Shown here: piece by piece, positions 2 to 21,405 of the stretch | How the letters are laid out: every line of letters starts with the position of its first letter | Numbering within the stretch: position 1 is the first letter of the stretch | DNA from: a virus | IMG/VR virus record: IMGVR_UViG_3300017724_002943 | Location: 1-26,475 of that record | Length of the DNA: 26,475 nucleotides | Strand: one strand, 5' to 3' | Notes under the pieces: generated by a model | Seen by the model: the letters and a program-made list of their open reading frames with translations, nothing else | Told to the model about the DNA's origin: nothing | The model's database searches: none | Made by a program: the position numbers and the translations under genes

Positions 2-421
2 CCTACAATCCCTGAAAAAAAGGAGTGGCAATTTGTTTATGATTTCATCCTCGAAGAACTCGAGGAATATAAACATGCTTGTGAAACAGGAGATATTGTT
101 GAGATTCTTGATGCTTTATGTGATATTGCCTACGTTTCATTGGGTAACGGAACTATGCTACATGGTCTTAAAGATAAAATATGGCCAGCATATCAAGAAG
201 TACAAGGGTCGAATATGTCGAAGGCTTGCTCAAGCGAAGAGGATGCACAAGCAACCGTGGAACTTAGATCAAAAGAGCAAAAAGAACCGTGTCACTATGA
301 GAAGGTTGGAAAATATTATATTGTCTATAGAACACGTGATAGAAAAGTAATGAAAAATGTCAACTATTACAGACCAGATCTTAAACAATTTTTTACAAAA
401 GAAGAAATAAAGAATGTATAA
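2..421 (+). CDS. MazG-like nucleotide pyrophosphohydrolase, 5' end outside window
   Basis: The reading frame is open from base 2 to the stop at 421 (139 residues visible), so the start lies upstream of the window. Residues 18-37 carry the all-alpha NTP pyrophosphohydrolase signature: EELEE followed by DIVEILD, whose acidic residues bind Mg2+ in MazG/HisE-type enzymes. The phrase SNMSK near residue 70 and the ending NYYRPDLKQFF also match, from memory, phage members of this family. These enzymes hydrolyse (d)NTPs to monophosphates, which in phages is thought to tune nucleotide pools or alarmone signalling. It overlaps the polymerase gene by 8 bp. About 40-45 percent GC over the first 300 bases contrasts with the AT-rich neighbours. 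Family is fairly sure; substrate unknown. Confidence 0.8.
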   Translation, partial: PTIPEKKEWQFVYDFILEELEEYKHACETGDIVEILDALCDIAYVSLGNGTMLHGLKDKIWPAYQEVQGSNMSKACSSEEDAQATVELRSKEQKEPCHYEKVGKYYIVYRTRDRKVMKNVNYYRPDLKQFFTKEEIKNV

Positions 422-2096
422 AAAGGCATTTGCAAGACGTCTTAAAGATAATAAGTTTTTAATACATTTATGGGAAGATCAGGGTTATTCTAAAGTAGAA
501 TGGGATAATCAAGCTTATATTGAATGTCATGAAGCTGATGCTCAATTTACTGGACTAAATGGTGAACCTCTTAAAAAAATTAAGAACTATAGAAATGATA
601 CTCCAAAACTTCATTTCCATGATATGCCTCCCTATCAAAAATTTCTAGTTGAAAAATATGGAATTAATGATGAGCCCTCTTTAACCCATAGAGAAATATT
701 TTTTGATATTGAAACAGAAATGGGTGATGCTCTTACAGAAGAATACATCAAGTCAGCACCTAAAAAAGTTACATCAATAGCTTGGTATGATAAACAAGTA
801 GATTTGTGGGGTATTGTTATTTTAGATCCTAAAGGACAACTAAAACATACTAAAGCAAAAAACAAAGAAATAATTCCTTGTAAAACAGAAGGAGAATTAT
901 TAGCTAAATTTCTAGAATTGTTTAGGGAAATGGATCCTGATATTATAGTAGGGTGGAATAGTGATTACTTTGACGTTCCTTATTTATATTATAGAATGTG
1001 TAATGTATTAGGAGAAGATTTTGCAAGACATTTATCTCCTATTGGTTATGTAAGAGAAACACCTTGGTTTAAAGATCAATACATTCAAATAGCAGGTGTT
1101 GAATCTTTAGATTATATGAGACTACACAAAAAATTCAGTTGGGCAGATGAACCCTCTATGAGGTTAGATGCTATTGGAGAAAAATATGTAGGAATGAATA
1201 AAATAGAATATGAAGGTAACCTTGATCAATTATTTGAAACTGATATTCATAAATTTATTAAATATAATTTTGTTGATGTTGAGATATTAAAAAAACTAGA
1301 TGAAAAGTTAGATTATTTAGCATTAACTAAAAATCTAGCACATAAAGGTAAACATAATTATAGTGAGGTTTATGCTAATACTAAAACACAAGATGGAGCT
1401 ATTTCAGCTTATTTATTAAGTAAAGGTATTATCCCTCCTGCAAAGGAACGTAATCCAATTTCTAAAAAGAACTATGCTGGTGGGTATTTATTTTGCCCTA
1501 AAGCAGGAATTTATAATTATGTTTTTGATGAAGATTTAACATCACTATATCCTTCAATTATTATGACTATTAACATTGGTAAAGAAACTATGGTTGGGAG
1601 AATTATAGATGCCGATGATAGAAATAATCGTTTAGGTTTAAATGATTTGAAATGTAGAGATTATGCTGAAGAATTAATTGTTGAGAATTTAAAAAGAAAT
1701 AGAACAAAAGTTAATATAGGTAGAATTGTTGCAATGGTAGAACAAAATGATTTATCAATTTCAGCAAATGGTGTTATGTTTAGTACAGATCGTGAGTCAG
1801 TATTATCTACTATTTTAAAAAAATGGTTTGATGAAAGAGTTAAGTATAAAAACGAAATGAAAAAATCATATAAATCCGGAAATAAAGAAGAAGGTGCTGC
1901 TTTTCATATGAAACAATATACTATGAAAATTTTACTCAATTCGTTATATGGTGCCACAGCTTTAGGATCATTCCGTTATGGGAATGTTATATTATCTGAA
2001 GCTATAACGCTTAGTGGACAACGAATTATACAAGAATCTGCATTAGCAGCTAATAGGCACATGAATAAAGTTATAAAAGAAGGATTAGAATTATGA
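414..2096 (+). CDS. 43A: DNA polymerase gp43, N-terminal part (exonuclease, motifs A and B)
   Basis: This is the N-terminal 560 residues of a T4-type family B replicative polymerase. The 3'-5' exonuclease motifs are visible: FFDIETE (Exo I, D98/E100), IIVGWNSDYFDVPYL (Exo II, about 178-191) and YNFVDVEIL (Exo III, about 284-292). Polymerase motif A is DEDLTSLYPSI (372-382) and motif B is KILLNSLYG (505-513). The chain stops shortly after motif B, so the catalytic DTDS motif C is missing here and lies in the next gene. The two pieces total 870 residues, close to the roughly 900 of T4 gp43, so nothing large is lost. The stop overlaps the start of 43B in ATGA, suggesting translational coupling. 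It overlaps the upstream pyrophosphohydrolase gene by 8 bp. Confidence 0.96.
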   Translation: MYKKAFARRLKDNKFLIHLWEDQGYSKVEWDNQAYIECHEADAQFTGLNGEPLKKIKNYRNDTPKLHFHDMPPYQKFLVEKYGINDEPSLTHREIFFDIETEMGDALTEEYIKSAPKKVTSIAWYDKQVDLWGIVILDPKGQLKHTKAKNKEIIPCKTEGELLAKFLELFREMDPDIIVGWNSDYFDVPYLYYRMCNVLGEDFARHLSPIGYVRETPWFKDQYIQIAGVESLDYMRLHKKFSWADEPSMRLDAIGEKYVGMNKIEYEGNLDQLFETDIHKFIKYNFVDVEILKKLDEKLDYLALTKNLAHKGKHNYSEVYANTKTQDGAISAYLLSKGIIPPAKERNPISKKNYAGGYLFCPKAGIYNYVFDEDLTSLYPSIIMTINIGKETMVGRIIDADDRNNRLGLNDLKCRDYAEELIVENLKRNRTKVNIGRIVAMVEQNDLSISANGVMFSTDRESVLSTILKKWFDERVKYKNEMKKSYKSGNKEEGAAFHMKQYTMKILLNSLYGATALGSFRYGNVILSEAITLSGQRIIQESALAANRHMNKVIKEGLEL

Positions 2097-3025
2097 AACA
2101 TTTAGAAGATACCCCATGGTGGATTTGTGATTCAGATGATACAAATTATGTAGCATACTCAGATACAGATTCAATTTATATACATGCTGAACCTTTATTA
2201 AGACATTTATATCCTGAATTTGAAACTATGCCTAGTGAAGAAAAAGATGATAAACTAGAAGATATTGCTTTAAAATACCAAGATATTATTACTAATTCTT
2301 ATGATTCATTAGCTACAGATTGTTTTAATGCTAAAGGCAAACATAGATTAGAAATGAAAACTGAATGTGTTATTCGTTCAGCTTACTTTAGGGCTACAAG
2401 ACGTTATGCTCAATGGATTACAAAACAAGAAGGTATTGTAAAAGAATCCCTTGATGTTAAAGGTCTTGAATTTAAAAAAGCTAATTTCCCTCCTGTATTA
2501 GGTAAATTTTTTCATAAAACTCTAGTTGATGTTTTAAAAGGAACAGAACAAAGTGAAATAGATAGTAGATTAAAATTATTTAAAACACAAATTTTAGATG
2601 GAACAATTCCTCTTACAGAATTAGGAAATCCTACATCCGTTAAAAAATTAAATAAATACACAGAGCGTAAGGCTAGAGCTGGAGAAATGTTTTCAATTAT
2701 AGGTAAAGGAGCACCAGCAGCTGTTAAAGCAACAATTATTTATAATGATTTACTTAAATTTTGGGGTTTAAATAAAAATCATAATTATATTACACAGGGT
2801 AGTAAAGTTAAATGGATTTATATGAAACCAAACCCATATCAAATTGATGCTATTGCTTTCCTAGACTATGATTTACCAGAAAAAATTCGTATATTCATTG
2901 AGCAATATGCAGATAGAAAAAAAATATTCGAGTCCATATTATTAAATAAATTAGAAGGATTTTATAATGATTTAGGATGGACACTAAATTTAAATCCTTA
3001 CCAACAAATGTTTTTTAATATATAA
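2093..3025 (+). CDS. 43B: DNA polymerase gp43, C-terminal part (motif C, thumb)
   Basis: 310 residues continue the polymerase directly. YSDTDSIY at 22-29 is motif C with the two catalytic aspartates (D24, D26). DVKGLEFKKANFPP further on corresponds to the palm-thumb transition of T4-like polymerases. The last residues, NPYQQMFFNI, resemble a clamp-binding tail with paired aromatics, as at the C-terminus of T4 gp43; this is inference. The ATG at 2093 lies inside the stop of 43A, and about 20 residues precede motif C, so the start is well placed. Active polymerase must form by assembly of both chains. The frame is open upstream only to about 2069, so a one-base change within roughly 28 nt would fuse the genes. 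Confidence 0.95.
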   Translation: MKHLEDTPWWICDSDDTNYVAYSDTDSIYIHAEPLLRHLYPEFETMPSEEKDDKLEDIALKYQDIITNSYDSLATDCFNAKGKHRLEMKTECVIRSAYFRATRRYAQWITKQEGIVKESLDVKGLEFKKANFPPVLGKFFHKTLVDVLKGTEQSEIDSRLKLFKTQILDGTIPLTELGNPTSVKKLNKYTERKARAGEMFSIIGKGAPAAVKATIIYNDLLKFWGLNKNHNYITQGSKVKWIYMKPNPYQIDAIAFLDYDLPEKIRIFIEQYADRKKIFESILLNKLEGFYNDLGWTLNLNPYQQMFFNI

Positions 3026-3026
3026 T

Positions 3027-3407
3027 ATGGCTAAAGATAAACCCGATATGTTTGCAGAAAATAAGGCAATTATGCCTTATGGAGATAGTGTGGGAGCACC
3101 TGCTATTCGACCTACTAATATTGGGGCTTTTAAACAAGAAAAAATCTTAAAAACTAATCATTACTTTAAATCTCGTTTTGATGAAATAAAAGATGAATAT
3201 AAAAAATTATTAGAGGCTTTTAAATGGAATGATTTAGTTTATAGTAGTGACTTTAGATTTGAACCTATAAAAGGTCATACTTATCACTTGTATCAAAAAG
3301 AAGATGAAACATTATTTTTATCATTAATAAAACCTAATGAGTGGGATATGATTTTTATAGGATCTTTTGAAATGGGTTCGGATGATAAATGGAATAAAAT
3401 AAATTGA
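3027..3407 (+). CDS. DUF2452-like protein
   Basis: 126 residues of unknown function. The order of motifs matches, from memory, the DUF2452 family that is common in Bacteroidota genomes: MPYGDSVGAPAIRP near the N-terminus, FKSRFDEIKDEYKKL, a GHTYHLYQK segment, LFLSLIKPNEW and a C-terminal GSFEM...DKW. No signal peptide or membrane segment is visible, so it is probably cytoplasmic. It starts one base after the 43B stop and is followed within 5 bp by the clamp gene, placing it inside the replication operon. A role as a replisome accessory is possible but only from position. The family match also supports a Bacteroidota host. Confidence 0.75.
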   Translation: MAKDKPDMFAENKAIMPYGDSVGAPAIRPTNIGAFKQEKILKTNHYFKSRFDEIKDEYKKLLEAFKWNDLVYSSDFRFEPIKGHTYHLYQKEDETLFLSLIKPNEWDMIFIGSFEMGSDDKWNKIN

Positions 3408-3411
3408 AAAT

Positions 3412-4146
3412 ATGATAAATAAACAAAAACTCCAATCAGTAATTAACAAATATTATTTAAATGTTAATGAAGCAGTAAAATGGGTTATAGAAGATAACAC
3501 ATTAAGTATTGACTTTATGTCTCCTACTAAAGATATTATAGGTAAACTTACTTGTAATGAATTTGAGTTAGAAGATAGTACATTAGCAATTTATGATACT
3601 AAAAAATTAAATAGTTTAGTTAGTATTTGTAATGGAGATTTACTTTTAGAACTAGAAAAAACAAATAAGATATTTACTAAATTAAAAATATCAGATTTAA
3701 ATTTTAACTTAACATATGCTTTATCTGATGCTTTACTTATTGGTAAAGTTGGAACTGTTAATATACCAGACTTTGTAGTTAAACTAAATTTAACTACTGA
3801 AGATATTGAAAATTTAATTAAAGCAAAAAGTGCATTATCCCAGGTAGATAATATGTTAGTAACAACAACTACCAATTTAGATGGAGAAAACATTTGTGAA
3901 TTTATATTTGGTGATGAATCAGGACATAATAACAAAATTACCTATCAAATAATGGGTGATATAACAGAACAAGATTTAAAAATTCCATTTAATTCAGATA
4001 CATTTAAAACAATTCTTCATGCTAATAAAGATATGGAAGAAGGAACATTAAATATTGGTTCAATGGGATTAATTGAAATGAAATTTAAAACAGATACTAT
4101 TTCCTCAGAATATTTTATGGTAAGGAAAGCAGAAACTGATTTTTAA
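3412..4146 (+). CDS. 45: Sliding clamp gp45
   Basis: 244 residues, close to the 228 of T4 gp45, the trimeric ring that tethers the polymerase to DNA and also activates late transcription in T4. Sequence identity to T4 is low. The assignment rests on length, the FELEDSTLAIYDTKKLNSLVSI segment (equivalent to the DVAIYDLNGFLGILSLV region of T4 gp45), the two-domain beta-rich pattern, the ending SEYFMVRKAETDF (T4 ends NYVVALEADSTHDF) and its place just after the polymerase. It starts 4 bp after the DUF2452-like gene. In T4 the clamp is directly followed by 44 and 62; here about 3.2 kb of chaperone and unknown genes lie between. Confidence 0.88.
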   Translation: MINKQKLQSVINKYYLNVNEAVKWVIEDNTLSIDFMSPTKDIIGKLTCNEFELEDSTLAIYDTKKLNSLVSICNGDLLLELEKTNKIFTKLKISDLNFNLTYALSDALLIGKVGTVNIPDFVVKLNLTTEDIENLIKAKSALSQVDNMLVTTTTNLDGENICEFIFGDESGHNNKITYQIMGDITEQDLKIPFNSDTFKTILHANKDMEEGTLNIGSMGLIEMKFKTDTISSEYFMVRKAETDF

Positions 4147-4170
4147 TATATGTATTAGAGAATAAACTGA

Positions 4171-4687
4171 CCTAAGGGCGTAAGTTATTTATTTTATTAT
4201 TAACCGCTGATCTAACGACAGCATAAAAACAAAGTGATATGAGTACACATTTTTTAGAGAGATTTTACAACCCGTATGATCTATTATTTCGCAACCTGTT
4301 TGAATCAGGAGCAACATTTACACCGGCTGGAGAAGCCAAACAACAATATCCAATTAATATTTTTGAAGATGATCTAGGTCTAACTTTTGAGTTAGCTTGT
4401 ACTGGCATTCCTAAAGAAGCCATTGAAGTTAAATTAGAAGGAGATATGATTACCTTTGCATATGATAAGGATAAAACACCAGAACCCGAAAGGAGTTATA
4501 TTCATAGAGGGATTGCCAAACGTTCTTTTAATTTAGCTTATAAATTAGGAACAAAATTTACACCAAATAAAGCAAGTGCTAATTTTAATGATGGATTACT
4601 AATAGTTACAGTACCATTTGCAAAAGAAGCTGCGCCTAAAGTTTTAAAAATTAATTAATTAGTCTTAACAGAAGTTCGCCCTTTAGG
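4171..4687. repeat. Short imperfect inverted repeat flanking the Hsp20 gene
   Basis: CCTAAGGGCG at 4171-4180, in the gap before the Hsp20 gene, is nearly the reverse complement of CGCCCTTTAGG at 4677-4687, in the gap after it; the second copy has one extra T. Both copies are followed by similar T/A-rich stretches. The 92-bp gap at 4147-4238 has no other recognisable element and no clear promoter of the type seen elsewhere in the window. The pair could be operator-like sites or chance; only about 10 bp match. Confidence 0.25.
4239..4658 (+). CDS. Hsp20 / alpha-crystallin small heat-shock protein
   Basis: 139 residues. The alpha-crystallin domain runs from about residue 38 to the end: PINIFEDDLGLTFELACTGI, then KEAIEVKLEGDMITFAYDKD, RSYIHRGIAKRSFNLAYKLG, and the hallmark GLLIVTVPF close to the C-terminus. 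Small heat-shock proteins hold unfolding proteins without ATP and hand them to other chaperones. Hsp20 genes are known in T4-like marine phages, especially cyanophages. Here it lies just upstream of a GroES/GroEL pair, giving an apparent complete holding-and-folding set. It has gaps of 92 bp before and 83 bp after, unusually wide for this window, so it may be expressed separately; no clear promoter was found upstream. Confidence 0.93.
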   Translation: MSTHFLERFYNPYDLLFRNLFESGATFTPAGEAKQQYPINIFEDDLGLTFELACTGIPKEAIEVKLEGDMITFAYDKDKTPEPERSYIHRGIAKRSFNLAYKLGTKFTPNKASANFNDGLLIVTVPFAKEAAPKVLKIN

Positions 4688-4718
4688 TTGGATTATTTAA
4701 TTATTATTCGTATATTAC
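4688..4718 (+). promoter_or_regulatory. Bacteroidota-type promoter (TTGG-N19-TATAT)
   Basis: TTGG at 4688-4691 and TATATTAC at 4711-4718 are separated by exactly 19 bp up to TATAT. The same arrangement recurs at three other gaps of the window. It resembles the Bacteroidota vegetative promoter, a TTTG-like -33 box and TAnnTTTG -7 box. It lies 24 bp before the small gene at 4742 and would drive that gene plus groES and groEL. Confidence 0.65.
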
Positions 4719-4741
4719 GGTAAACAAAAATAAAAAGTTAT

Positions 4742-5038
4742 ATGGCAAAAATTACAGACCCCCTATTAGAACCCTATTTTATAGGCAAAGATACACATTG
4801 TTATACTGTGTATGAAGTTGTTACCCCCCAAGCAAAGTATTTAGAAAAAGGTAGTGAAGGTAAAGATTATGAAAAACCTCAAGGACATTATTCTTCTTTT
4901 GGGGCTGCTTTACAAAAAATAGCAAAAGAAAAACTAAATAGTGAAAAAGATCATTATAGTAGTATTAAAGAATATGTTGAAAGGTGGGAGGAATTATTAA
5001 TCGAATTAAAAAAATTACAAAATTATAAAGGACTATGA
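4742..5038 (+). CDS. Small protein of unknown function upstream of groES
   Basis: 98 residues that I do not recognise with confidence. The N-terminal half contains DTHCYTVYEVVTP and GHYSSFGAALQKIAKEKL, a pattern reminiscent of small phage proteins in which a beta hairpin is followed by a helix (DUF5405-like, weak memory only). The C-terminal third, EYVERWEELLIELKKLQ, is probably a helix able to form a coiled coil. No membrane segment or metal-binding motif is seen. It is the first gene after a predicted promoter and overlaps groES by 4 bp (ATGA), so it is probably co-translated with the chaperonin genes. A link to chaperonin function is possible but rests only on position. Confidence 0.75.
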   Translation: MAKITDPLLEPYFIGKDTHCYTVYEVVTPQAKYLEKGSEGKDYEKPQGHYSSFGAALQKIAKEKLNSEKDHYSSIKEYVERWEELLIELKKLQNYKGL

Positions 5039-5427
5039 ATTTAGAAGCATTATTTAACGCAGTTATTGTTAAACCCTTAGAAGTAGAGGAAGAAACATAT
5101 GGATCAATTGTAGTACCAGATATTGGTAAAGATAAAAACGAACATGGTACTGTAGTAGCAGTAGGCCCAGGTTCAAATACACATATGGGTCATTTTATCC
5201 CAAATGTAATTGAAGTTGGGGATATAGTTGTTCTTCCAACTCAAGGTTTTACTAAATTAGAACATGAAGGAGAAGAATATTACATTGGACCCGAAAATCA
5301 AGTTTTAGCTAGAGTAAAAAAAGAAGTTAATGTTGAAGAAGTATTAGCTGAAACAGAACCATTAGATGAAAACCATTTAATTAGTGAAGAAGAATTTAAT
5401 CAATTAGAAAATAAAGACAATGAGTAA
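5035..5427 (+). CDS. groES: GroES-like co-chaperonin (Cpn10)
   Basis: 130 residues. The first 97 form a Cpn10 fold: FNAVIVKPLEVEEETYGSIVVPD corresponds to the first strand and the mobile loop, with GSIVVP matching the GGIVLP-like tripeptide that docks to GroEL. GTVVAVGPG, VGDIVVLPTQGFTKLEHEGEEYYIG and QVLARV follow in the usual order. A strongly acidic tail of about 33 residues (98-130), absent from E. coli GroES, extends the protein; its role is unknown. T4 gp31 is a functional GroES analogue needed to fold the major capsid protein, so a similar role is likely. It overlaps the upstream gene by 4 bp and groEL by 8 bp, consistent with tightly coupled expression with its partner. Confidence 0.93.
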   Translation: MNLEALFNAVIVKPLEVEEETYGSIVVPDIGKDKNEHGTVVAVGPGSNTHMGHFIPNVIEVGDIVVLPTQGFTKLEHEGEEYYIGPENQVLARVKKEVNVEEVLAETEPLDENHLISEEEFNQLENKDNE

Positions 5428-7045
5428 AGTTATAGAATTTGGCCCTGAAGGGAGAAAAAAATTAGTAAAAGGAATTGACACTTTAGCTAACGCAGTTGTG
5501 TCAACATTAGGACCTAATGGAAGAAATGTTGTAATTGAAAAAGAACACCAACAAGTACAATCTACAAAAGATGGGGTTACAGTAGCAAGACATATATCAG
5601 TAAAAGATCCTGTTGAAAATTTAGGAGTTAATTTAGTTAGAGAAGCATCAATTAAAACAGCAGATAAAGCTGGAGATGGAACAACTACTTCAACTTTATT
5701 AGCTAGAGAAATGATTAATGAAGGATTACAACATTTAGCTAATGGAGCTAATGCTGTTGAAATTAAAAGAGGAATTGATAAAGCTGTAAATTCAGTAACA
5801 GATAGTCTTAGAAAGAATATAGCTGAAGATATAAGTGAAGAATCTCAATTAGAACAAGTAGCGACTATATCAGCAAATAATGACCCTGAAGTAGGAAAAT
5901 TAATCGCAACTGCTATTCAAAAAGTAGGACATGAGGGTGTAGTCCATATTGAAGAAAGTAAATCAGGAGATACTTATTTAGAAACTGTTGAAGGAATGCA
6001 ATTTGAGAGAGGTTATAAATCTCATTATTTTGTAACTAATAATAGTACTATGACTAGTACTTTGGAAGATGTCCAAATCCTTATAGTAGATGAAAGAGTT
6101 ACAACTGTAAAAAATTTATTACCTATTTTAGAAAGTGTATCTGCTAATAATAAATCACTTTTAATTATTGCTGAAGATATTGATAATGAAGCTTTAGCAA
6201 CTCTTATTGTTAATAAAGGAAGAGGAATTCTAAAAGCATGTGCCGTAAAAGCACCAGATTTTGGAGATAGAAGAAAACTTATTTTAGAAGATATAGCAAC
6301 TTTAACAGGAGGAACAGTATTTTCAAAAGAAAAAGGTCATAAATGGGATAAATTCCAACATAGTTGGTTTGGTGAAGCTAGAACTGTTACTATTACTAAA
6401 GATAAAACAACAATTATTGATGGTAAAGGTGAAGAAGATAAAGTTAATTCAAGAATAGAGAATCTTACATCACAGATAGAAAATGCTGAAAGCGATTTTG
6501 AAAAAGAACAATTACAAAACAGATTAGCTAGATTATGTGGAGGTGTTTCTATTATTCATGTAGGAGGATTTACTGAAACTGAAATGAATGAGAAAAAAGA
6601 CAGAGTAGATGATGCCCTAAATGCTACAAAAGCAGCAATTGAAGAAGGTATTGTACCTGGAGGAGGAACAGCATTATTATATGCTAGACAAGCTATTGAT
6701 AATTGTAATATTGGGGCTGGAATTGTTTACAAAGCATGTGGTAAACCTTTTGAACAAATATTAGTAAATGCTGGTCATGATTCAGTTGGAGCCCAAATGT
6801 TAGGTAAATATCAATTAGTTGAAGGTGGGAATAATACATGGGCTGGTTATGATCTTAAAAAAGCAGAAGTTGTTAATATGAAAGAAGCTGGGATTATTGA
6901 TCCTACTAAAGTGACAAGAGTTGCTCTTGAAAATGCGGCTGCAGTAGCAGGTACAGTATTGTTAACAGAATGTATAGTAGTAAATGAACCTAAGGAGGAT
7001 GACAATCAACCACAAATTGACCCTTCATCAATGATGGGGATGTAA
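5420..7045 (+). CDS. groEL: GroEL-type chaperonin, full length
   Basis: 541 residues, collinear with E. coli GroEL (548). The ATP-binding GDGTTT is at 85-90, and the hydrolytic aspartate lies in RVDDALNATKAAIEEG. Apical substrate and GroES-binding residues are kept: RGYKSHYF, LLPILESV and ALATLIVN correspond to Y199/Y203/F204, L234/L237 and the V263/V264 region. TKVTRVALENAAAVAGT near the end is canonical. Differences are an unusual GHKWDKFQHSWFG segment at the apical-intermediate boundary, a short deletion near DNCNIGAG, and PSSMMGM in place of the long GGM tail. All catalytic elements look intact, so it is probably an active ring chaperonin that works with the adjacent GroES on virion proteins or host proteins. 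Confidence 0.98.
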   Translation: MSKVIEFGPEGRKKLVKGIDTLANAVVSTLGPNGRNVVIEKEHQQVQSTKDGVTVARHISVKDPVENLGVNLVREASIKTADKAGDGTTTSTLLAREMINEGLQHLANGANAVEIKRGIDKAVNSVTDSLRKNIAEDISEESQLEQVATISANNDPEVGKLIATAIQKVGHEGVVHIEESKSGDTYLETVEGMQFERGYKSHYFVTNNSTMTSTLEDVQILIVDERVTTVKNLLPILESVSANNKSLLIIAEDIDNEALATLIVNKGRGILKACAVKAPDFGDRRKLILEDIATLTGGTVFSKEKGHKWDKFQHSWFGEARTVTITKDKTTIIDGKGEEDKVNSRIENLTSQIENAESDFEKEQLQNRLARLCGGVSIIHVGGFTETEMNEKKDRVDDALNATKAAIEEGIVPGGGTALLYARQAIDNCNIGAGIVYKACGKPFEQILVNAGHDSVGAQMLGKYQLVEGGNNTWAGYDLKKAEVVNMKEAGIIDPTKVTRVALENAAAVAGTVLLTECIVVNEPKEDDNQPQIDPSSMMGM

Positions 7046-7046
7046 T

Positions 7047-7319
7047 ATGGAAACAGTAATTAATGAACATAATGAACTAATAGCAACAAGAATACCACCT
7101 GGAGACAGGTGGGAACTTGTTGGTGATAGTAAAAAACAAGTATGGCCTACTCTAACAGAAACATTAGAGGCCTACTTAAATAAAACAAAATTTCAAGGAG
7201 AATATAGGTTAGATCCTATGGGGAGTAAATTATATGCTATCCATTCTACTGAAGAAGAAGTAAAACCAAAAGAAGAAAAAATGTATTCTTTATATGGTGA
7301 ATTTAGACAGGGTGTTTAA
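7047..7319 (+). CDS. Small protein of unknown function after groEL
   Basis: 90 residues, not recognised. It has a WELVGDSKKQVWPTLTETLEAYL stretch that could form a beta strand plus helix, then GEYRLDPMGSKLYAI, a likely hairpin, and a charged C-terminus. No signal peptide, membrane segment or cysteine motif is present. The start lies one base after the groEL stop (TAATATG), so it belongs to the chaperonin transcription unit. It is the last gene before the promoter that precedes the clamp-loader gene. Confidence 0.7.
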   Translation: METVINEHNELIATRIPPGDRWELVGDSKKQVWPTLTETLEAYLNKTKFQGEYRLDPMGSKLYAIHSTEEEVKPKEEKMYSLYGEFRQGV

Positions 7320-7321
7320 GT

Positions 7322-7352
7322 TTGGGAGTTTAATAAATATTTTGTATATTTA
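7322..7352 (+). promoter_or_regulatory. Bacteroidota-type promoter with start codon almost at the transcription start
   Basis: TTGG at 7322-7325, 19 bp, then TATATTTA at 7345-7352. The ATG of gene 44 is at 7357, only 4 bp past the -7 box. Transcription would begin at or within a few bases of the ATG, so the mRNA is predicted to be leaderless or nearly so. The motif matches the copies at 4688, 11134 and 24046. Confidence 0.7.
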
Positions 7353-7356
7353 GGTT

Positions 7357-8259
7357 ATGAAAGATCACGGATTATTAGTAGAAAAATATCGTCCTACAAA
7401 TTTAAATAATTATGTAGGTAATGAAAGTATTAAAAAATCAATATCTAGTTATATTGGTCAAAATGACATTCAAAATTTAATATTTTATGGTCCAGCTGGA
7501 ACAGGTAAAACTACATTAGCGAAATTAATTGTTAAAAATATTGAATGTGATCATCTTTATATTAATGCTTCTGATGAAAGAGGTATTGAAACAATTAGAG
7601 ACAAAGTATCGGGATTCGCTAGTACAATGTCTTTTAAACCCCTTAAAGTAGTTATTTTAGATGAAGCCGATTTTCTTACTATTCAGGCACAAGCTTCTCT
7701 TCGTAATGTTATTGAAACATTTTCACGCACAACCAGATTTATTTTAACTTGTAATTTTATAGAACGTATTATTGATCCCTTACAATCAAGGTGTCAAACA
7801 TTAAAAGTAGTACCTCCTAATAAATTAGATATTCTTAAACATTTAGTAAAAGTAGTTAAAAGAGAAAATATTTCTACAGTTGAAGAAGATTTAAGAATTA
7901 TTGTTGATAATAATTATCCTGATGTGCGTAAAATGCTTAATACTATACAAGTATCTACAACAGATAATAAACTAAATCTAGATACAACAGCATTAGTATC
8001 ATCTAATTATATTAAAGAAGTAGTTGAGGAATTATCAAACCAAAAATCTTGGATAAAAATAAGACAAATAATAGCAAATGCTAATGTAAAAGATTTTGAA
8101 GAATTATATCGTACTTTGTATGATGAATCGTCAAAATTTGCTCCTGGAAAGGAAGGAATGATTGCTTTTCATATAAATCAATTTTCATACCAATCAAATT
8201 TTAGAATTGATAAAGAAATTAATTGTATGGCTTTAATGAATCAATTAATTAATTTATAA
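7357..8259 (+). CDS. 44: Clamp-loader ATPase gp44
   Basis: 300 residues, slightly shorter than T4 gp44 (319). This AAA+ subunit uses ATP to open the gp45 ring and load it onto primer-template DNA. Visible motifs are the opening LLVEKYRP, typical of clamp-loader subunits; Walker A GPAGTGKT (45-52); Walker B VVILDEAD (98-105); sensor 1 LTCNF (around N133); and SRC with the trans-acting arginine finger (144-146). The start is fixed because the conserved EKYRP begins nine residues in, and no alternative start lies nearby. It has its own predicted promoter and probably leads the run of genes down to the nuclease at 11150. Its stop overlaps the next start by one base. Confidence 0.96.
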   Translation: MKDHGLLVEKYRPTNLNNYVGNESIKKSISSYIGQNDIQNLIFYGPAGTGKTTLAKLIVKNIECDHLYINASDERGIETIRDKVSGFASTMSFKPLKVVILDEADFLTIQAQASLRNVIETFSRTTRFILTCNFIERIIDPLQSRCQTLKVVPPNKLDILKHLVKVVKRENISTVEEDLRIIVDNNYPDVRKMLNTIQVSTTDNKLNLDTTALVSSNYIKEVVEELSNQKSWIKIRQIIANANVKDFEELYRTLYDESSKFAPGKEGMIAFHINQFSYQSNFRIDKEINCMALMNQLINL

Positions 8260-8894
8260 TGAAGTGGATAACTGAACCTACTGATCATAAAGGGTATTTA
8301 ATTAATGATATTATTTATACAAATGATGGTAGATTATTAGATAGTAATGGTAATGCTGTTATGATGGAATGGGAAAAACCTATAATGAAAGATGCTGCAT
8401 CTCTTATATGTAGAGATGGAGGTAGAATACTTAATGTAGGATTTGGATTAGGTCTTATAGATAATTACATTCAATCCCAGGATATAAAAGAACATTGGAT
8501 AATAGAAGCCCATCCTGGGGTTATTCAAAAAATGAAAGATGAAGGGTGGGATAAAAAACCTAATGTAAGGTGTATTTTTGATAAATGGCAGAATGTATAT
8601 AAAGATTTACCTAAATTTGATGGAGTATATTTTGATACATGGAAAGAAGCACATGAAGATTTTCATCAAATAATAGAAAGTATTCTAAACCCAGGAGCTA
8701 AATATTTATATTTTTTTGGACAGGTAATGTCCAATTCTTCAATTAAAGAATGGAGTAAATATGGGTTTGAATTAGAAGAACATACAACACATTTAAAAAA
8801 AATTGCAAAAAATCAACACCAACATTCACAATACTGGAATGAAAATAATAAAGAATTTAAACAAAATCTATTAATATATAATCAAAAACAATAA
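8259..8894 (+). CDS. Rmt2/GAMT-like SAM-dependent N-methyltransferase
   Basis: 211 residues, one class I methyltransferase domain. GNAVMMEWEKPIMKDAASL (31-49) precedes motif I ILNVGFGLG (57-65). Then come WIIEAHPGV (80-88, E83 expected to bind the ribose) and FDGVYFDTW (120-128). This exact series is typical of yeast Rmt2 (protein arginine delta-N-methyltransferase) and of guanidinoacetate methyltransferase, both of which methylate a guanidinium group. The ankyrin-like N-terminus of eukaryotic Rmt2 is absent, leaving only the catalytic domain. It sits between clamp-loader genes 44 and 62, a place with no such gene in T4. The substrate is unknown: an arginine on a phage or ribosomal protein, or a small guanidino compound, are possible. 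Confidence 0.8.
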   Translation: MKWITEPTDHKGYLINDIIYTNDGRLLDSNGNAVMMEWEKPIMKDAASLICRDGGRILNVGFGLGLIDNYIQSQDIKEHWIIEAHPGVIQKMKDEGWDKKPNVRCIFDKWQNVYKDLPKFDGVYFDTWKEAHEDFHQIIESILNPGAKYLYFFGQVMSNSSIKEWSKYGFELEEHTTHLKKIAKNQHQHSQYWNENNKEFKQNLLIYNQKQ

Positions 8895-8897
8895 AAA

Positions 8898-9140
8898 ATG
8901 AGTGAACAATTAAACCAGCCCCAGATAGACTTAAAAAGTACTACGGGATTCGAAGATGAAAATGGAAATAAAGTTTTCCAACAAGGATACATTCTTAGAA
9001 AAGTATCTAAATTTATATCAGGAGGTAATGAAGATGCTATGATGCCTATTCCTGTATTTTACGAACCAAGCACAGGTAAAATAGTAGGAGCTACATTACA
9101 CCCAGATTTAAAAGAAGAATTTAAGGATGAATGTATTTAA
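8898..9140 (+). CDS. Small protein of unknown function upstream of gp62
   Basis: 80 residues, not recognised. The N-terminus is polar. The central KVFQQGYILRKVSKFI and PIPVFYEPSTGKIVGATLHPDLKEEF suggest a small beta-rich fold. It begins 3 bp after the methyltransferase and its last 14 bases overlap the gp62-like gene, so it is likely co-translated with the clamp-loader subunit. No motif suggests a function. Confidence 0.7.
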   Translation: MSEQLNQPQIDLKSTTGFEDENGNKVFQQGYILRKVSKFISGGNEDAMMPIPVFYEPSTGKIVGATLHPDLKEEFKDECI

Positions 9141-9543
9141 TTGGTTAGAAGAAATTACTGTTAAGAAATCACCAGCATCCCAATTTTCTCAAAAGGATTG
9201 GGATGACTGGAATTCTTATATGGTTCATAGATTTTTATCTATGAATATGAGTTATGTTAATATAGTTAATATTGCTCAAGAATTTCAACCAACTGATAAA
9301 AAAGGTATCTATAATTTTTATAAAGAAATATTACCCCAAAAGAAAATATGGAATAAATATATAAAAAATAAAAGTAAAAAAGATACAAAAGAATTATCTA
9401 AAATTATATCTAATTATTTTAAAATTGGATTCAATGAAGCTAATTCGTATATTCCCATATTAGGGAAAGAAAGTATTATAGAAATACTTAAATCTATAGG
9501 AAACGAAAAAAAAGAAATAACTAAATTAATAAAAAATATATGA
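9127..9543 (+). CDS. 62: Clamp-loader small subunit, gp62-like
   Basis: 138 residues, shorter than T4 gp62 (187). The pattern VFNWLEEITVKKSP, then YMVHRFLSMNMSYVNIVNIAQEF, then YNFYKEILPQKKIWNKYIK, and a C-terminal helical region (IISNYFKIGFNEANSYIPIL, then IIEILKSIG) fits the phage clamp-loader A subunit as seen in T4-like marine phages. In those, NPF/YMVNRxLS, a QYxFY segment and a K/R-F-x-K/W segment occur in the same order (recalled, not searched). gp62 forms a 1:4 complex with gp44. Position downstream of 44 supports the call, although here a methyltransferase and a small gene intervene. It overlaps the next gene by 4 bp. Confidence 0.75.
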   Translation: MNVFNWLEEITVKKSPASQFSQKDWDDWNSYMVHRFLSMNMSYVNIVNIAQEFQPTDKKGIYNFYKEILPQKKIWNKYIKNKSKKDTKELSKIISNYFKIGFNEANSYIPILGKESIIEILKSIGNEKKEITKLIKNI

Positions 9544-11407: not shown

Positions 11408-12838
11408 ATGAAGGAAGGTTATATTAAAAGAGAAGAAAGAAAAAAAATTCTTCTTCTAACAGATGATATTAGAGTTCACTCTGGGGTTGCTCAAATTGGA
11501 AGAGAAATAGTAATGCATACTGCCCATAGATACAATTGGGTTCAATTAGCAGGAGCTATTAAACATCCTGATACTGGGAACCTCCAAGATTTAAGTGATG
11601 ATACTAATAAAAAAATGGATCTAGAAGATTCTAATGTTTTGTTATATCCTTGTGATGGTTATGGGGATGAAAAATTAGTTCGTTTAGTTATAGAAAAAGA
11701 AAAACCAGATGCGATTCTTTTAATAACAGATCCACGTTATTTTGAGTGGTTATTTCAAATAGAAGATGAAATTAGAACTAAAATTCCTATAACATATTTA
11801 AATATTTGGGATGATTTACCAGCACCTATGTATAATCAAGATTTTTATGATTCATGTGATGGTTTATTTGGAATTTCTAAACAAACAAAAAATATCAATG
11901 AAATGGTATTAGGGAGTAAAGTTGAAGGAAAAACAATTAAATATATCCCTCATGGATTAAATAATAAAAAGTTTAAGATTTTAAAAAGTGATGATAAGGA
12001 ATTACTAAATTTTAAAAAAGAATTAAATGGAGAAAATAAAATAAAATTTTCACTTTTATTTAATTCTAGAAATATTAGAAGAAAATGTATTCCTGATACA
12101 ATATTAGCTTGGAAATTATTTTTAGATACTTTACCAAAAAAAGAAAGAAACCAATGTCAATTAGTTTTACATACTAATCCTATAGATCAACATGGAACTG
12201 ATCTACCATCAGTAATTAGATTTTTATTCCCAGATGATGATCATAACATTGTAATGTCAACTAATAAACTTTCGATTGAACAAATGAATTGTTTATACAA
12301 TAATGCTGATGGAGTAATATTATTATCCTCTGCTGAAGGTTGGGGATTATCTTTAACAGAAGCTATGTTAACTGGTACTCCTTTTATAGCTAATGTAACT
12401 GGGGGAATGCAAGATCAAATGAGATTTGTAGATAAAAATGGAGATTGGTATACACCAACACCTGATATTCCTTCTAACCATAGAGGAACTTATAAAGAGT
12501 GTGGAGAATGGGCTTTACCTGTATTCCCTTCAAACTTATCATTAGTAGGTTCTCCTAAAACACCTTATATCTATGATGATAGGTGTAGTGCTGAAGAAGC
12601 AGCATTAAAAATAAAAGAATTATACAGTATGAGTAAAAAAGAGAGAGAAGATAGAGGAAAAAAGGGTATGGAATGGGCTTTAGGAGATGAGGCTGGATTT
12701 ACTTCTGAACACCAAGCAACTAGATTTATAGATGCTATAGAAGAAACAATAAGTAATTTTGTACCTAAAAAAGGTTTTTCTTTTACTAGTGATAGTAACA
12801 AGTCAAACAAAGTTTTAAACCATAAATTAATATATTAA
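11408..12838 (+). CDS. GT-B glycosyltransferase, family 4-like (first)
   Basis: 476 residues. The N-terminal Rossmann half begins with KILLLTDDIRVHSGVAQIGREI, the usual opening with a donor-side glycine turn. KYIPHGLNNKKF at about 178-189 is the interdomain region. The C-terminal half holds SSAEGWGLSLTEAM (308-320), the E-x7-E motif (E310, E318) that contacts the nucleotide-sugar donor in GT4 enzymes. GTPFIANVTGGMQDQM follows as expected. It should be a retaining glycosyltransferase using a nucleotide sugar; the sugar and acceptor are unknown. It starts 23 bp after the RHH-like gene and opens the glycan island. Confidence 0.88.
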   Translation: MKEGYIKREERKKILLLTDDIRVHSGVAQIGREIVMHTAHRYNWVQLAGAIKHPDTGNLQDLSDDTNKKMDLEDSNVLLYPCDGYGDEKLVRLVIEKEKPDAILLITDPRYFEWLFQIEDEIRTKIPITYLNIWDDLPAPMYNQDFYDSCDGLFGISKQTKNINEMVLGSKVEGKTIKYIPHGLNNKKFKILKSDDKELLNFKKELNGENKIKFSLLFNSRNIRRKCIPDTILAWKLFLDTLPKKERNQCQLVLHTNPIDQHGTDLPSVIRFLFPDDDHNIVMSTNKLSIEQMNCLYNNADGVILLSSAEGWGLSLTEAMLTGTPFIANVTGGMQDQMRFVDKNGDWYTPTPDIPSNHRGTYKECGEWALPVFPSNLSLVGSPKTPYIYDDRCSAEEAALKIKELYSMSKKEREDRGKKGMEWALGDEAGFTSEHQATRFIDAIEETISNFVPKKGFSFTSDSNKSNKVLNHKLIY

Positions 12839-12839
12839 T

Positions 12840-14129
12840 ATGAAAAATACATTTGTTATAAGTTGTCCAATTGATACTTACAGTGGATATGGTGCACGAA
12901 GTAGGGATTTTGTAAAAGCCTTAATAGATCTAGATAAATATGATATTCAAATTTTACCTCAAAGGTGGGGTAAAACTGCTGAAGGTTTTATTGATAATAA
13001 TAAAGAATGGGAATTTTTAAATGATCACATAATTCCACAATTAATGGCAAAACCTGACTATTGGTGTCAAATTACAGTTCCTAATGAATTTCAAGCTATA
13101 GGACAATATAATATTGGTTTAACAGCTGGAATGGAAACAACTATTGTAGATGGAAGTTGGATTGAAGGTTGTAATAGAATGGATTTAATTCTTACATCAT
13201 CTAACCATTCTAAAAAAACATTTCAAAATAGTCAATTTTATAAAGATGGAAATGAAGAAAATCTTATTAAATTAGAAAAACCTATTGAAGTTTTATTTGA
13301 AGGTTTAAATTTAGATGTTTATAAAAAAACAAAAACATTTACAAATTCCGATTTATATAATGAAATTAATTCTATAAAAGAAGATTTTTCTTATTTAACT
13401 GTAGGTCATTGGATGCAAGGTGAATTAGGTGAGGATAGAAAAAATATAGGTTTAACAATTAAAGCATTTTATGAATTATTTAAAAATAGAACAAACACAC
13501 CAGCTTTAATTCTAAAAACTTGTATAGTAAATGGAAGTATTATGGATAGGTCAGAAATACTTAGAAGAATTAATATAATTAAAGAAGGTATCCAAAATGC
13601 TAAAACTCTTCCAAAAATATATGTACTTCATGGTAATTTTACAGACCCTGAAATAAATGAATTATATAATCATCCTAAAGTAAAAGCAATGATTAGTTTA
13701 ACAAAAGGAGAAGGTTTTGGGAGACCATTATTAGAATTTAGTGCTATTGATAAACCCATTATAGCTTCAAATTGGTCAGGACATTTAGATTTCTTAGAAG
13801 AAGAACACACAGCATTAGTAGGAGGTAAATTAGACAAAATTCATCAATCAGCAATTGTTCAAAATATGATTATACCTGAAGCTGAATGGTTTAGACCTGA
13901 ATTACAAGATATAGGGTATTCTTTTAATATTATTTGGGAAGAATATAAAGAATTTATAAAAAAAGCAAAAAAACAAGGATCGCATTCAAGAAATAATTTT
14001 TCATTTAATAAAATGAAAGATAAAATAGAAGAAATTTTTAATAATAATTTAATAGATTTACCTAAAAAGCTAGATTTAAAAATTGCTAATATTGAAATGC
14101 CTAAAAAACCAACACTAAAAAAAGTATAA
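12840..14129 (+). CDS. GT-B glycosyltransferase, family 4-like (second)
   Basis: 429 residues. The start resembles the preceding gene in layout (CPIDTYSGYGARSRDFVKAL, with a glycine turn). IEVLFEGLNLDVYKK (149-163) corresponds to the interdomain hinge, and SLTKGEGFGRPLLEF (286-300) is the E-x7-E motif (E291, E299). DKPIIASNWSGHLDFL follows. It is probably a retaining transferase acting on the same glycan as its neighbour. It begins one base after the previous stop. The two GT4 genes are not close copies, so they probably add different sugars. Confidence 0.85.
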   Translation: MKNTFVISCPIDTYSGYGARSRDFVKALIDLDKYDIQILPQRWGKTAEGFIDNNKEWEFLNDHIIPQLMAKPDYWCQITVPNEFQAIGQYNIGLTAGMETTIVDGSWIEGCNRMDLILTSSNHSKKTFQNSQFYKDGNEENLIKLEKPIEVLFEGLNLDVYKKTKTFTNSDLYNEINSIKEDFSYLTVGHWMQGELGEDRKNIGLTIKAFYELFKNRTNTPALILKTCIVNGSIMDRSEILRRINIIKEGIQNAKTLPKIYVLHGNFTDPEINELYNHPKVKAMISLTKGEGFGRPLLEFSAIDKPIIASNWSGHLDFLEEEHTALVGGKLDKIHQSAIVQNMIIPEAEWFRPELQDIGYSFNIIWEEYKEFIKKAKKQGSHSRNNFSFNKMKDKIEEIFNNNLIDLPKKLDLKIANIEMPKKPTLKKV

Positions 14130-14130
14130 A

Positions 14131-14628
14131 ATGGTAGAAACTGATAAATTAATAAAATGTAATAGATGTGGGGGAGATGCTTGTTATAAGCAAGAAATAA
14201 ATGGTATAGAATTATATTCTTGTTACGGTTGTGGGTTTCAAACTTCATCTATAATGAAAAAAGGAGAAAAGTTTTTTGAAGAACAAATGGAAATTCTTCC
14301 TGAGTTATATAAAGCTTTACTTGGAGAAGATGAAGAGGGAATGATTTGGATGCCCCAAACAGTAAATCTACCACAACAAGGGATGGTTTTTGCCTCTGTA
14401 GCTAAAGATCATGCTGTTGTAAATGAAACCCCCTCTCAAGATAATTATGAATGGGCTGCTGTAAAGGCTATTCCAATACCTGAAGAAGATAAAGAAAAAT
14501 ATCCTATACCTAATAAAGAAGGAGAATTTTATGAATGGAGAATGGATATGACTACTGAAAAAAGATTTGCTCATAATGATTTTGTAGAAGCTTTAGATTA
14601 TATTGGGATATTTGGTAAAGAAGAGTAA
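14131..14628 (+). CDS. Zinc-ribbon protein of unknown function in glycan island
   Basis: 165 residues. A zinc ribbon is visible at the N-terminus: IKCNRCGG (C10, C13) and YSCYGCGF (C31, C34). The rest has no motif I know; it is acidic and ends with EWRMDMTTEKRFAHNDFVEALDYIG. It begins one base after the second GT4 gene and ends 3 bp before the GT9-like gene, so it is embedded in the glycosylation genes. It may bind nucleic acid or stabilise a partner, but position is the only guide. Confidence 0.8.
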   Translation: MVETDKLIKCNRCGGDACYKQEINGIELYSCYGCGFQTSSIMKKGEKFFEEQMEILPELYKALLGEDEEGMIWMPQTVNLPQQGMVFASVAKDHAVVNETPSQDNYEWAAVKAIPIPEEDKEKYPIPNKEGEFYEWRMDMTTEKRFAHNDFVEALDYIGIFGKEE

Positions 14629-14631
14629 ATA

Positions 14632-15561
14632 ATGAAAAAAATAGCTGTCTATATTGATATGCCAGCATTAGGGGATACACTAGCTGCTATTCCTACAATA
14701 AACAAGCTTTACCAAGCACATGATACACCTATAACTGTATTTACTTACCATCCACTTTTATTTAAAGACCACCCTTCAGTTTTAGAAGCATTATATGTTC
14801 ATCAATCAGATCATAACTTATATGATTATTTTTATACAACACCATTTAAGGAAAAGATTAAAATTAATGGTAAAGATGTAGAATTTAAACATTCCCAAAT
14901 TGATATAAGACAATTTCATGCTTTATCTTTAGGTTTTTCATTAACCCCAAAAGAAATGGAGATTGACCTTTATATAAAAGAAGATTGGGATATAGGATTT
15001 AAAGATTATGTTATAATTCATCCAACTTATACTTGGGATTCTAGAACATGGGATACAAAGAAATATCAAAAATTAATAGATAAACTAAATAATAAAGGGA
15101 TACCAGTAGTAGCTATTGGTAAAAATAGCTCAGAAACTGGTTTTCATAATATATCTAAACCAGTAATGGATATTAAAATCCAATATGGAGTAAATCTATT
15201 AAACCATCCTGAGGGAAGTTTACCTAAAATTAGAAGTTTAATAGATAAAGCTAAATGTTTAGTAGTTATGGACTCAGGGATATTACATTTAGGAGGTACT
15301 ACAGATGTAGAAATTATTCAATTAGGATCATCAATTGATCCTTATTTTAGAGCACCTTATAGGAAAGGAAGTCAAAAACATAAGTATACTTTTATTGGAG
15401 GTGGTTGTGATTTATTTTGTACTTCAAATATGAAACATCATTTAAAAGAATGGGACACAATTCAAGGTGTACCTCCTTTAGTAGGATGTTTGGAAAATAA
15501 ACCCTCATTTGAATGCCATCCTGATGTAGATAAAGTATTTAATAAAATTTTAACATTATGA
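14632..15561 (+). CDS. GT9-like (heptosyltransferase-type) glycosyltransferase
   Basis: 309 residues. IDMPALGDTLAAIPTINKLYQ at the N-terminus is the GD-x-L/I-x-x-x-P motif of the GT9 heptosyltransferases, which normally add heptose from ADP-heptose to the lipopolysaccharide core. YVIIHPTYTWDSRTWDTKKYQKLIDKL matches the central HP...R.W...L motif, and VVMDSGILHLGG corresponds to the D-S-G-x-x-H donor-binding loop. A cysteine-bearing C-terminal region is less typical. Together with the HldE-like kinase downstream it suggests heptose-like sugars in the glycan. It overlaps the next gene by 4 bp. Acceptor is unknown. Confidence 0.82.
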   Translation: MKKIAVYIDMPALGDTLAAIPTINKLYQAHDTPITVFTYHPLLFKDHPSVLEALYVHQSDHNLYDYFYTTPFKEKIKINGKDVEFKHSQIDIRQFHALSLGFSLTPKEMEIDLYIKEDWDIGFKDYVIIHPTYTWDSRTWDTKKYQKLIDKLNNKGIPVVAIGKNSSETGFHNISKPVMDIKIQYGVNLLNHPEGSLPKIRSLIDKAKCLVVMDSGILHLGGTTDVEIIQLGSSIDPYFRAPYRKGSQKHKYTFIGGGCDLFCTSNMKHHLKEWDTIQGVPPLVGCLENKPSFECHPDVDKVFNKILTL

Positions 15562-16403
15562 AAATATTAGTAACAGGTGGGGTGGGTTTTATAGGAACTG
15601 CTCTTATAAAAAAATTATTGGATGAAAAACATATTGTTCATTCTTTAGATAATTATAAAATTGGGTGTAAAGAAAATGAAATTGAAGGTTGTTACTACCA
15701 TAATGTAGATATAGAAAATATTCACCTAATGGATAAAGATTTTGATTTAATTTTCCATTTAGCAGCTTTATCTAGAATTCAACCTTCTTTTAATAAGCCT
15801 GAAGATACATTTAGAGTTAACACTATTGGAACTCAGAAAGTATGTGAATTTGCTAGATATATTGGAGCTAAAGTTGTATATTCTGGTTCATCTTCAAAAT
15901 GGCATAATCCATATCAATCACCTTATGCTGCATGTAAACATATGGGTGAAGAAGCTTGTAAAATGTATAAAAAAACATATGGGATGGATATTGAAATAGC
16001 TAGATTCTATAATGTTTATGGTCCTGGTGAAATAATAGAAGGAGATTGGGCAGCTGTTATAGGAAAATGGAGACGTCAAGTTAAAAATAATGAATTAATA
16101 ACAATAGTAGGAGACGGAGAGCAAAGAAGAGATTTTACTTATATAAAAGACATAGTAGATGGCTTGTGGAGAATTGGGATGAAAAATGAAAAACATATAG
16201 ATGCATGGGAATTAGGTAATGGTGAAAATTATTCCATAAATGAAGTATATCAAATGTTTTATGAAAAATTTAACATAGAATGTAAACACATCCCAGAACA
16301 AAAAGGAAACTATAGAAAAACATTAAGAGAAAATGATGATGCTCTTAAAAGATTAGGTTGGCTCCCAACAGGTAATTTATTATATTATATCCAAAGTTTA
16401 TAA
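15558..16403 (+). CDS. SDR nucleotide-sugar epimerase/dehydratase (UDP-glucose 4-epimerase-like)
   Basis: 281 residues, extended short-chain dehydrogenase. GGVGFIG (7-13) binds NAD(P), LDNY (30-33) follows the second strand, FHLAALS (67-72) is typical, SGSSS (109-113) and YAACK (Y123, K127) form the catalytic set. RFYNVYGPGE and GDGEQRRDFTYIKDIVDGL are characteristic of nucleotide-sugar epimerases. The protein is about 40 residues shorter than most GalE-type enzymes, mainly at the C-terminus. The specific substrate cannot be told from motifs alone. It overlaps the GT9-like gene by 4 bp and is followed after one base by a GT2-like gene. Confidence 0.88.
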   Translation: MKILVTGGVGFIGTALIKKLLDEKHIVHSLDNYKIGCKENEIEGCYYHNVDIENIHLMDKDFDLIFHLAALSRIQPSFNKPEDTFRVNTIGTQKVCEFARYIGAKVVYSGSSSKWHNPYQSPYAACKHMGEEACKMYKKTYGMDIEIARFYNVYGPGEIIEGDWAAVIGKWRRQVKNNELITIVGDGEQRRDFTYIKDIVDGLWRIGMKNEKHIDAWELGNGENYSINEVYQMFYEKFNIECKHIPEQKGNYRKTLRENDDALKRLGWLPTGNLLYYIQSL

Positions 16404-16404
16404 T

Positions 16405-17028
16405 ATGAAAATAAGTTATGCAATTACAGTCTGTGATGAGTTTGTAGAAATCCAAAGATTAATTCCATTTTTATTAGAAAATAAAAAATATGGGGATGAA
16501 ATCGTAGTTTTATATGATTCCATAAATGGAGACGAAAAGGTTGAAGAATTTTTAAGAGCAAAATCAATTAATGGTGAGTTTAGTTGGCATAAAGATAAAT
16601 TTAATAATCATTTTGCAGATTGGAAAAATAAACTTACTGAAAAGTGTGATGGAGATTGGATATTCCAAATTGATGCAGATGAAATGCCTCATATAGATTT
16701 AATTACATATCTTCCTGAAATTATTTTAAGTAATCCTAAAAATGAAGTTATAAAAGTTCCAAGAATTAATACTGTTCATGGTTTAACTGAAGAATATGAA
16801 AGAAAATGGGGGTGGAGAGTAAATGAAAAAGGTTGGGTCAATTGGCCTGATTTTCAATGGAGAATTTGGAAGAACCATCCTAAAATAAAGTGGGTAAATA
16901 AAGTTCATGAAGTATTAGATGGTTATAGTACTTATGCTGATTTGAATCAAGAAGAACGTTTCTCTCTATATCACCCTAAAGATATAGAAAAACAAGTTAA
17001 ACAAAATAATTATTATGAAAGTATATAG
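16405..17028 (+). CDS. GT2-like glycosyltransferase
   Basis: 207 residues. The GT-A opening MKISYAITVCDE is followed by DGDWIFQIDADEMPH with the metal-binding D-A-D (90-92). The C-terminal part has WRVNEKGWVNWPDFQWRIWKNHP and WVNKVHE, a pattern common in short family 2 transferases of surface polysaccharide clusters. It should be an inverting, nucleotide-sugar dependent enzyme, cytoplasmic. It overlaps the GT10-like gene by 14 bp. Confidence 0.82.
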   Translation: MKISYAITVCDEFVEIQRLIPFLLENKKYGDEIVVLYDSINGDEKVEEFLRAKSINGEFSWHKDKFNNHFADWKNKLTEKCDGDWIFQIDADEMPHIDLITYLPEIILSNPKNEVIKVPRINTVHGLTEEYERKWGWRVNEKGWVNWPDFQWRIWKNHPKIKWVNKVHEVLDGYSTYADLNQEERFSLYHPKDIEKQVKQNNYYESI

Positions 17029-17941: not shown

Positions 17942-17992
17942 AGCGCTTCGCTTGCACCGAAGAGGTCATCGGTTCGACTCCGATATTCTCCA
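17919..17992 (+). tRNA. tRNA-Ala (anticodon TGC)
   Basis: 74 nt fold into a full cloverleaf. The acceptor stem is GGGGAAT with ATTCTCC (one G-U pair). The D arm is GCTC...GAGC, the anticodon stem CTTCG/CGAAG with loop CTTGCAC (anticodon TGC), and the T arm ATCGG/CCGAT with loop TTCGACT. Discriminator base is A; the following CAA shows that CCA is not encoded. From memory it closely resembles flavobacterial tRNA-Ala genes, supporting the host assignment. It lies in the middle of the glycan island. Confidence 0.95.
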
Positions 17993-18006
17993 CAAAATAT
18001 TAAATA

Positions 18007-18147
18007 ATGAAAGATAATCAAAATAATGGTAACCCTCATACTAATGAAACCCGAAATGGGCTTAATAATAAAATTAGTAAATTAGCAATGTTGGGTCAAT
18101 CTAAAAAAGTAAAATGGTCTGATAAAAGACGTTTTAGAAACATATAA
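18007..18147 (+). CDS. Small basic protein, 46 residues
   Basis: A 46-residue frame begins 14 bp after the tRNA (AATAATG) and ends one base before the next ATG. The N-terminal half is rich in Asn and Thr, the C-terminal half basic (SKKVKWSDKRRFRNI). The spacing, matching start context and fit between the tRNA and next gene support it as real. Function unknown. Confidence 0.55.
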   Translation: MKDNQNNGNPHTNETRNGLNNKISKLAMLGQSKKVKWSDKRRFRNI

Positions 18148-18148
18148 T

Positions 18149-21402: not shown

Positions 21403-21405
21403 ATA

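Follow-up and report, generated by a model that had tools for sequence, protein, structure and literature searches.

The yeast enzyme Rmt2, a type IV protein arginine methyltransferase, carries an N-terminal ankyrin-type repeat region ahead of its methyltransferase domain. It methylates Rpl12 (uL11), in which the target is Arg67 (PMC3020972, PMC3365026). In guanidinoacetate methyltransferase (GAMT), residue Asp134 removes a proton from the guanidino nitrogen undergoing methylation (PMC12842229). Viral genes assigned to GAMT (K00542) are also known: a 2024 ocean survey found them in nine ocean virus populations, 85.4-fold enriched over microbes, and a role in the supply of creatine was suggested (PMC11360552). 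The first-pass annotation of the DNA analysed here stated that no described phage arginine delta-methyltransferase was known to it. None was indeed found in the literature searched, but the viral 'GAMT' genes of that survey had already been reported.

The methyltransferase gene and its family

A gene related to these enzymes is present in the window (the whole stretch of DNA that was analysed, 26,475 nucleotides of an IMG/VR virus record). It starts with ATG, occupies positions 8259-8894 of the plus strand and encodes a GAMT/Rmt2-type class I SAM-dependent methyltransferase of 211 aa, as indicated by phmmer, profile and fold comparisons. The open reading frame had been read correctly at the outset, including its one-base overlap with gp44: the ATG of the methyltransferase and the TAA stop of gp44 have one base in common (TTATAATGAAG). 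Both flanking genes are also on the plus strand and were recognised by their PHROG matches as T4-type clamp-loader genes, namely gp44, the large subunit of the sliding-clamp loader, directly upstream (7357-8259; PHROG 168, E = 6e-73), and gp62, the small subunit (9127-9543; PHROG 225, E = 2e-15). The earlier placement between genes 44 and 62 was correct as regards these flanks, but it omitted an 80-aa ORF that precedes gp62 on the same strand (8898-9140). This ORF is conserved in the lineage and has 29% identity to an ORF of phage immuto.

Among GroEL proteins, that of Flavobacterium phage immuto comes closest to the one in the window (57.5%). Nine genes of the window have matches within a 20-kb stretch of the same phage, among them the nuclease and the glycosyltransferase run, in the same order. 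The gene cut by the left end of the window (2-421) has 79% identity over 137 aa to an immuto gene, and the other shared genes 29-57%. Shine-Dalgarno sequences were found at few window genes, and their scarcity is usual in Bacteroidota; the Bacteroidota promoter pattern was not enriched in the window (1 match vs 2.6 expected). The DNA derives from a marine phage whose host likely belongs to Bacteroidota.

In a phmmer search of the PDB, the protein matched rat GAMT (1xcj) at E = 3e-19 over residues 27-166, and the family profile (47 rows) gave E = 6e-37, covering nearly the whole domain. The AlphaFold model, for which the input alignment comprised 46 sequences, has a mean pLDDT of 91.1 and a pTM of 0.89. 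Its predicted ordered part starts near residue 10, and the 211-aa form lacks an extra substrate-binding domain. The five best PDB folds were all GAMT chains (E 3e-14 to 1e-11, TM 0.63-0.76), followed by spermidine synthase and other Rossmann methyltransferases at E = 3e-8 and above. The Pfam, PHROG, NCBIfam and PADLOC models gave nothing above chance for this protein, nor was there any Pfam or NCBIfam match to models of the canonical PRMTs (types I-III). Membership in the GAMT/Rmt2 superfamily, as proposed in the first-pass annotation, is supported by sequence, profile and predicted fold, and no other, unrelated methyltransferase family was matched.

The four motifs named in that annotation were all found, far above chance, with phmmer and the family profile: NAVMMEWEKPIMK (residues 32-44; 8352-8390), the SAM-binding motif ILNVGFGLG (residues 57-65; 8427-8453), in which G61 and G63 are invariant, WIIEAHPGV (residues 80-88; 8496-8522), with I81, I82, E83 and H85 invariant, and FDGVYFDTW (residues 120-128; 8616-8642), all encoded on the plus strand. 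In the alignment to 1xcj, which covers all four motifs, Glu39 (codon 8373-8375, plus strand) corresponds to GAMT Glu45, which we take to be a guanidine contact, and Asp126 (codon 8634-8636, plus strand) to Asp134, the catalytic base in GAMT. The guanidine-binding acids have not been lost; both are invariant across all 75 rows, of which 47 are viral and 28 bacterial.

GAMT (PDB 1xcj, 3orh) and the window protein are alike in their whole-chain fold, the SAM motif, the W-E motif with Glu45, the catalytic Asp134 and the C-terminal Tyr region. However, their core identity is ~32%, and the 7-residue insertion that follows Asp-Thr in GAMT is absent from the window protein and reduced in length in the viral rows displayed. 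Directly after Asp-Thr, the viral proteins have W128 or a variable residue, whereas GAMT has Tyr-Pro. The GAMT-type loop (DTYP plus 7 residues) after Asp134 is kept in the CPR and Saprospiraceae rows. With yeast Rmt2 the protein shares the superfamily and, by analogy, would share the kind of chemistry, and its EAHP and NVGFG motifs resemble what we take to be the corresponding Rmt2 motifs; unlike Rmt2, it lacks an N-terminal ankyrin-type region. Given the GAMT folds, the invariant Glu39 and Asp126 and the role of Asp134 in GAMT, guanidine N-methyltransferase is the best-supported class for the predicted enzyme, which would methylate a guanidine nitrogen if its chemistry follows that of GAMT.

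Viral and cellular relatives

At least 554 viral relatives of the methyltransferase are present in IMG/VR, while the phage collection has a single record encoding one, from an uncultured phage of 634 kb. With strict patterns, 33 relatives were found in genomes of Rhodospirillaceae, Chlamydiae, candidate phyla and others, and the family profile matched 2 of the 198 Bacteroidota genomes, one strongly and one weakly. Uncultured phages commonly carry predicted guanidine methyltransferases of this kind, which the usual family models fail to recognise.

A tree built from 76 rows places all viral rows but that of the 634-kb phage in a single clade (46 rows, support 97/86), the sister of which consists of TPR-fused Rhodospirillaceae proteins (98/91 for the joint group). 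The TPR repeats are confined to these Rhodospirillaceae relatives. The rows of Chlamydiae and those related to them group in a clade of their own. In this tree, whose root was set on a single long-branched GAMT row, GAMT and the GAMT-like bacterial sequences fall outside the viral clade. The viral 'GAMT' genes of the ocean survey, which likewise come from ocean viruses, are probably the same kind of gene, matched by annotation and not by sequence; they differ in having been interpreted as genes of creatine synthesis. The best predicted viral structure match (E = 2e-16) was A0A8D9CBY1 of an uncultured marine phage, a distant protein (27% identity) whose name in UniProt, putative guanidinoacetate methyltransferase, is annotation only. 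In view of the relation to the published viral GAMT genes and the lack of reports of a phage arginine delta-methyltransferase in the literature searched, the methyltransferase clade is best described as a large and separate branch, made up of viral proteins, within an enzyme family that is already known.

The relatives occupy diverse genomic positions. In other phages they adjoin the tail sheath/tube module, elsewhere they are fused or close to DUF3310, together with an APS-kinase-like gene, and a relative in a different lineage follows closely after gp43. In three viral loci (L041, L059 and L082) the methyltransferase is near 2OG-Fe(II) oxygenase-type genes, and in L082 it also adjoins a SET-domain gene. 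No guanidine-metabolism genes were recognised in the neighbourhoods of relatives that were read.

Several of these loci have further features. In L057, L053, L072 and L081 the methyltransferase continues at its C-terminal end into a fused DUF3310 domain, and DUF3310 is a separate gene close to it in L045 and L130. The viral contig L059 carries two divergent methyltransferase copies (2947-3531 and 5995-6630) 2.5 kb apart, the first of which overlaps a 2OG-Fe(II) oxygenase gene. Two bacterial loci from the chlamydia-type clade, L118 and L120, and the phage locus L082 have SET-domain or SET-like genes (6915-7484, 3927-4538 and 6649-7035, respectively) adjacent or close to the methyltransferase.

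Candidate substrates

The reading that we favour, with a probability of roughly 0.55, is that the gene encodes an accessory SAM-dependent methyltransferase of the GAMT/Rmt2 superfamily, carried as cargo and not as part of the replisome, and more likely arginine-directed than creatine-forming. As to its substrate, the side chain of an arginine in a protein of the host or the phage, modified at the delta nitrogen as by yeast Rmt2 but not at the uL11 site, is our leading candidate, at slightly under even odds. The preference for an arginine on another protein draws on two indirect arguments, the TPR-fused relatives and the neighbourhoods containing modifying enzymes. The same direction is indicated by the missing 7-residue insertion of GAMT and by the lack of an amidinotransferase in 20 viral records. 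A counterpoint is that phages could draw guanidino compounds from the host or from seawater.

To our knowledge, delta-N protein arginine methylation is not known from bacteria. We only tentatively raise the possibility that the protein is a viral type IV (delta-N) protein arginine methyltransferase, the first of its kind, which would mark a host-bacterial or virion protein and occupy a slot shared with other methyltransferases. The gene may be either metabolic or a phage-borne arginine modifier, and the choice affects viral gene catalogues.

The substrate ranked next is a small-molecule guanidine other than guanidinoacetate, such as free arginine, agmatine or a host metabolite, which would be methylated during infection. 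The 211-aa form, with no extra substrate-binding domain, and the best fold matches, which are small-molecule enzymes (GAMT and spermidine synthases), are consistent with such a substrate. However, the nearest cellular relatives bear TPR repeats, and guanidine-metabolism neighbours were absent from the contexts read; we consider this substrate rather unlikely.

It is improbable that the protein is a true guanidinoacetate methyltransferase making creatine, as proposed for the 'GAMT' genes of ocean viruses. Among solved structures GAMT alone is closely related, its catalytic acids are matched, and both the survey that suggested creatine supply and the UniProt name of the marine phage protein agree with this proposal. 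However, no amidinotransferase (PF02274) that would supply guanidinoacetate was found in any of the 20 related viral records with the methyltransferase gene, several of which are fragments. A parallel search for the kinase (PF00217) gave no match anywhere, controls included, and is thus uninformative. The family profile matches hardly any of the 198 genomes from Bacteroidota, the group of the likely hosts. Because a partner amidinotransferase is lacking, the loop after Asp-Thr does not fit and the viral clade lies apart from GAMT and the GAMT-like bacterial rows in the tree rooted on the single GAMT row, creatine formation is not favoured, and its published interpretation is poorly supported by the present sequence evidence.

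The slot after gp44 and the remaining readings

In the lineage of the window, gp44 is followed by the methyltransferase, in some cases by a 66-aa ORF, and then by the 80-aa ORF and gp62. This neighbourhood was surveyed in the best 80 gp44 matches in IMG/VR and cross-checked by tblastn. A GAMT-like methyltransferase directly follows gp44 in 23 of these 80 loci, an unrelated Methyltransf_23 enzyme is present in its place in 16, another methyltransferase of a third type in one, and none in 40 (tblastn). Two methyltransferases were never found in one of the 80 loci. If the GAMT-like and Methyltransf_23 genes were distributed independently, 4.6 co-occurrences would be expected, compared to none observed; the hypergeometric value of 0.002 serves as a guide only, since the loci are related and some of them shortened. 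The GAMT-like gene is missing even at some loci whose gp44 is 93-94% identical.

The Methyltransf_23 enzyme (~180 aa, with an MHHE start) lies between the 80-aa ORF and gp62, for example at 3537-4079 in L206 and 3854-4408 in L190, and in 14 other loci.

Given that its relatives in other phages sit in tail, post-gp43 and modification-enzyme regions, the methyltransferase gene is optional cargo, and the slot that it occupies behind gp44 is variable. Since this slot houses optional genes, location there tells little about what the enzyme does, and the predicted enzyme would act outside the replisome. A role during early replication, possibly by modification of a replisome protein, had been suggested from the placement between gp44 and gp62. 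It could be argued in its favour that the position after gp44 is fixed in those loci of the lineage that have the gene, and that a relative adjoins gp43 in another lineage. However, the survey of the best 80 gp44 loci led us to reject a replication role deduced from gene order: half of the loci lack the methyltransferase, including some with nearly identical gp44, an unrelated methyltransferase substitutes for it in 16, and the relatives elsewhere have other neighbourhoods, such as tail modules. We therefore consider this role very improbable.

A ribosomal protein had also been named as a possible target, and the most concrete form of this proposal is an Rmt2-like enzyme acting on host uL11 at the equivalent of yeast Arg67. 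In the uL11 alignment, for which the yeast reference sequence was identical to the PDB chain over 165 residues, E. coli and two other Pseudomonadota have an Arg one column beside the Arg67 site, which would fit such an activity. However, the corresponding residue is Lys in all Bacteroidota read, where the stretch is Asp-Lys, and so the residue targeted by yeast Rmt2 is missing from the likely hosts of the phage. Provided that the host belongs to Bacteroidota, a uL11 target of the yeast type is disfavoured, and we give it very little credence.

Modification of phage DNA, for instance of an amidine-bearing 7-deazaguanine, is equally hard to credit: QueC co-occurs with the methyltransferase gene in 8 of 23 viral records (those of L063, L024, L071, L040, L039, L085, L066 and L131) and the related phage immuto encodes the 7-deazaguanine DNA-modification pathway, but no such methyltransferase was found in immuto, and QueC is missing from the 108-117 kb records of other lineages that carry the gene, for which reason the link was rejected as a general one. 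A search for TGT found none, although divergent DNA transglycosylases might escape it.

The window has further features. The gp43 gene (family B DNA polymerase) is represented by two overlapping ORFs (414-2096 and 2093-3025), and a homologue of the second part is present in 16 loci. The genes for Hsp20, GroES and GroEL are grouped upstream of gp44 (4239-7045), an arrangement conserved in the lineage, and an extended series of genes for glycosyltransferases, epimerases and sugar-nucleotide functions (11408-22293) is located 3' of the replication genes.
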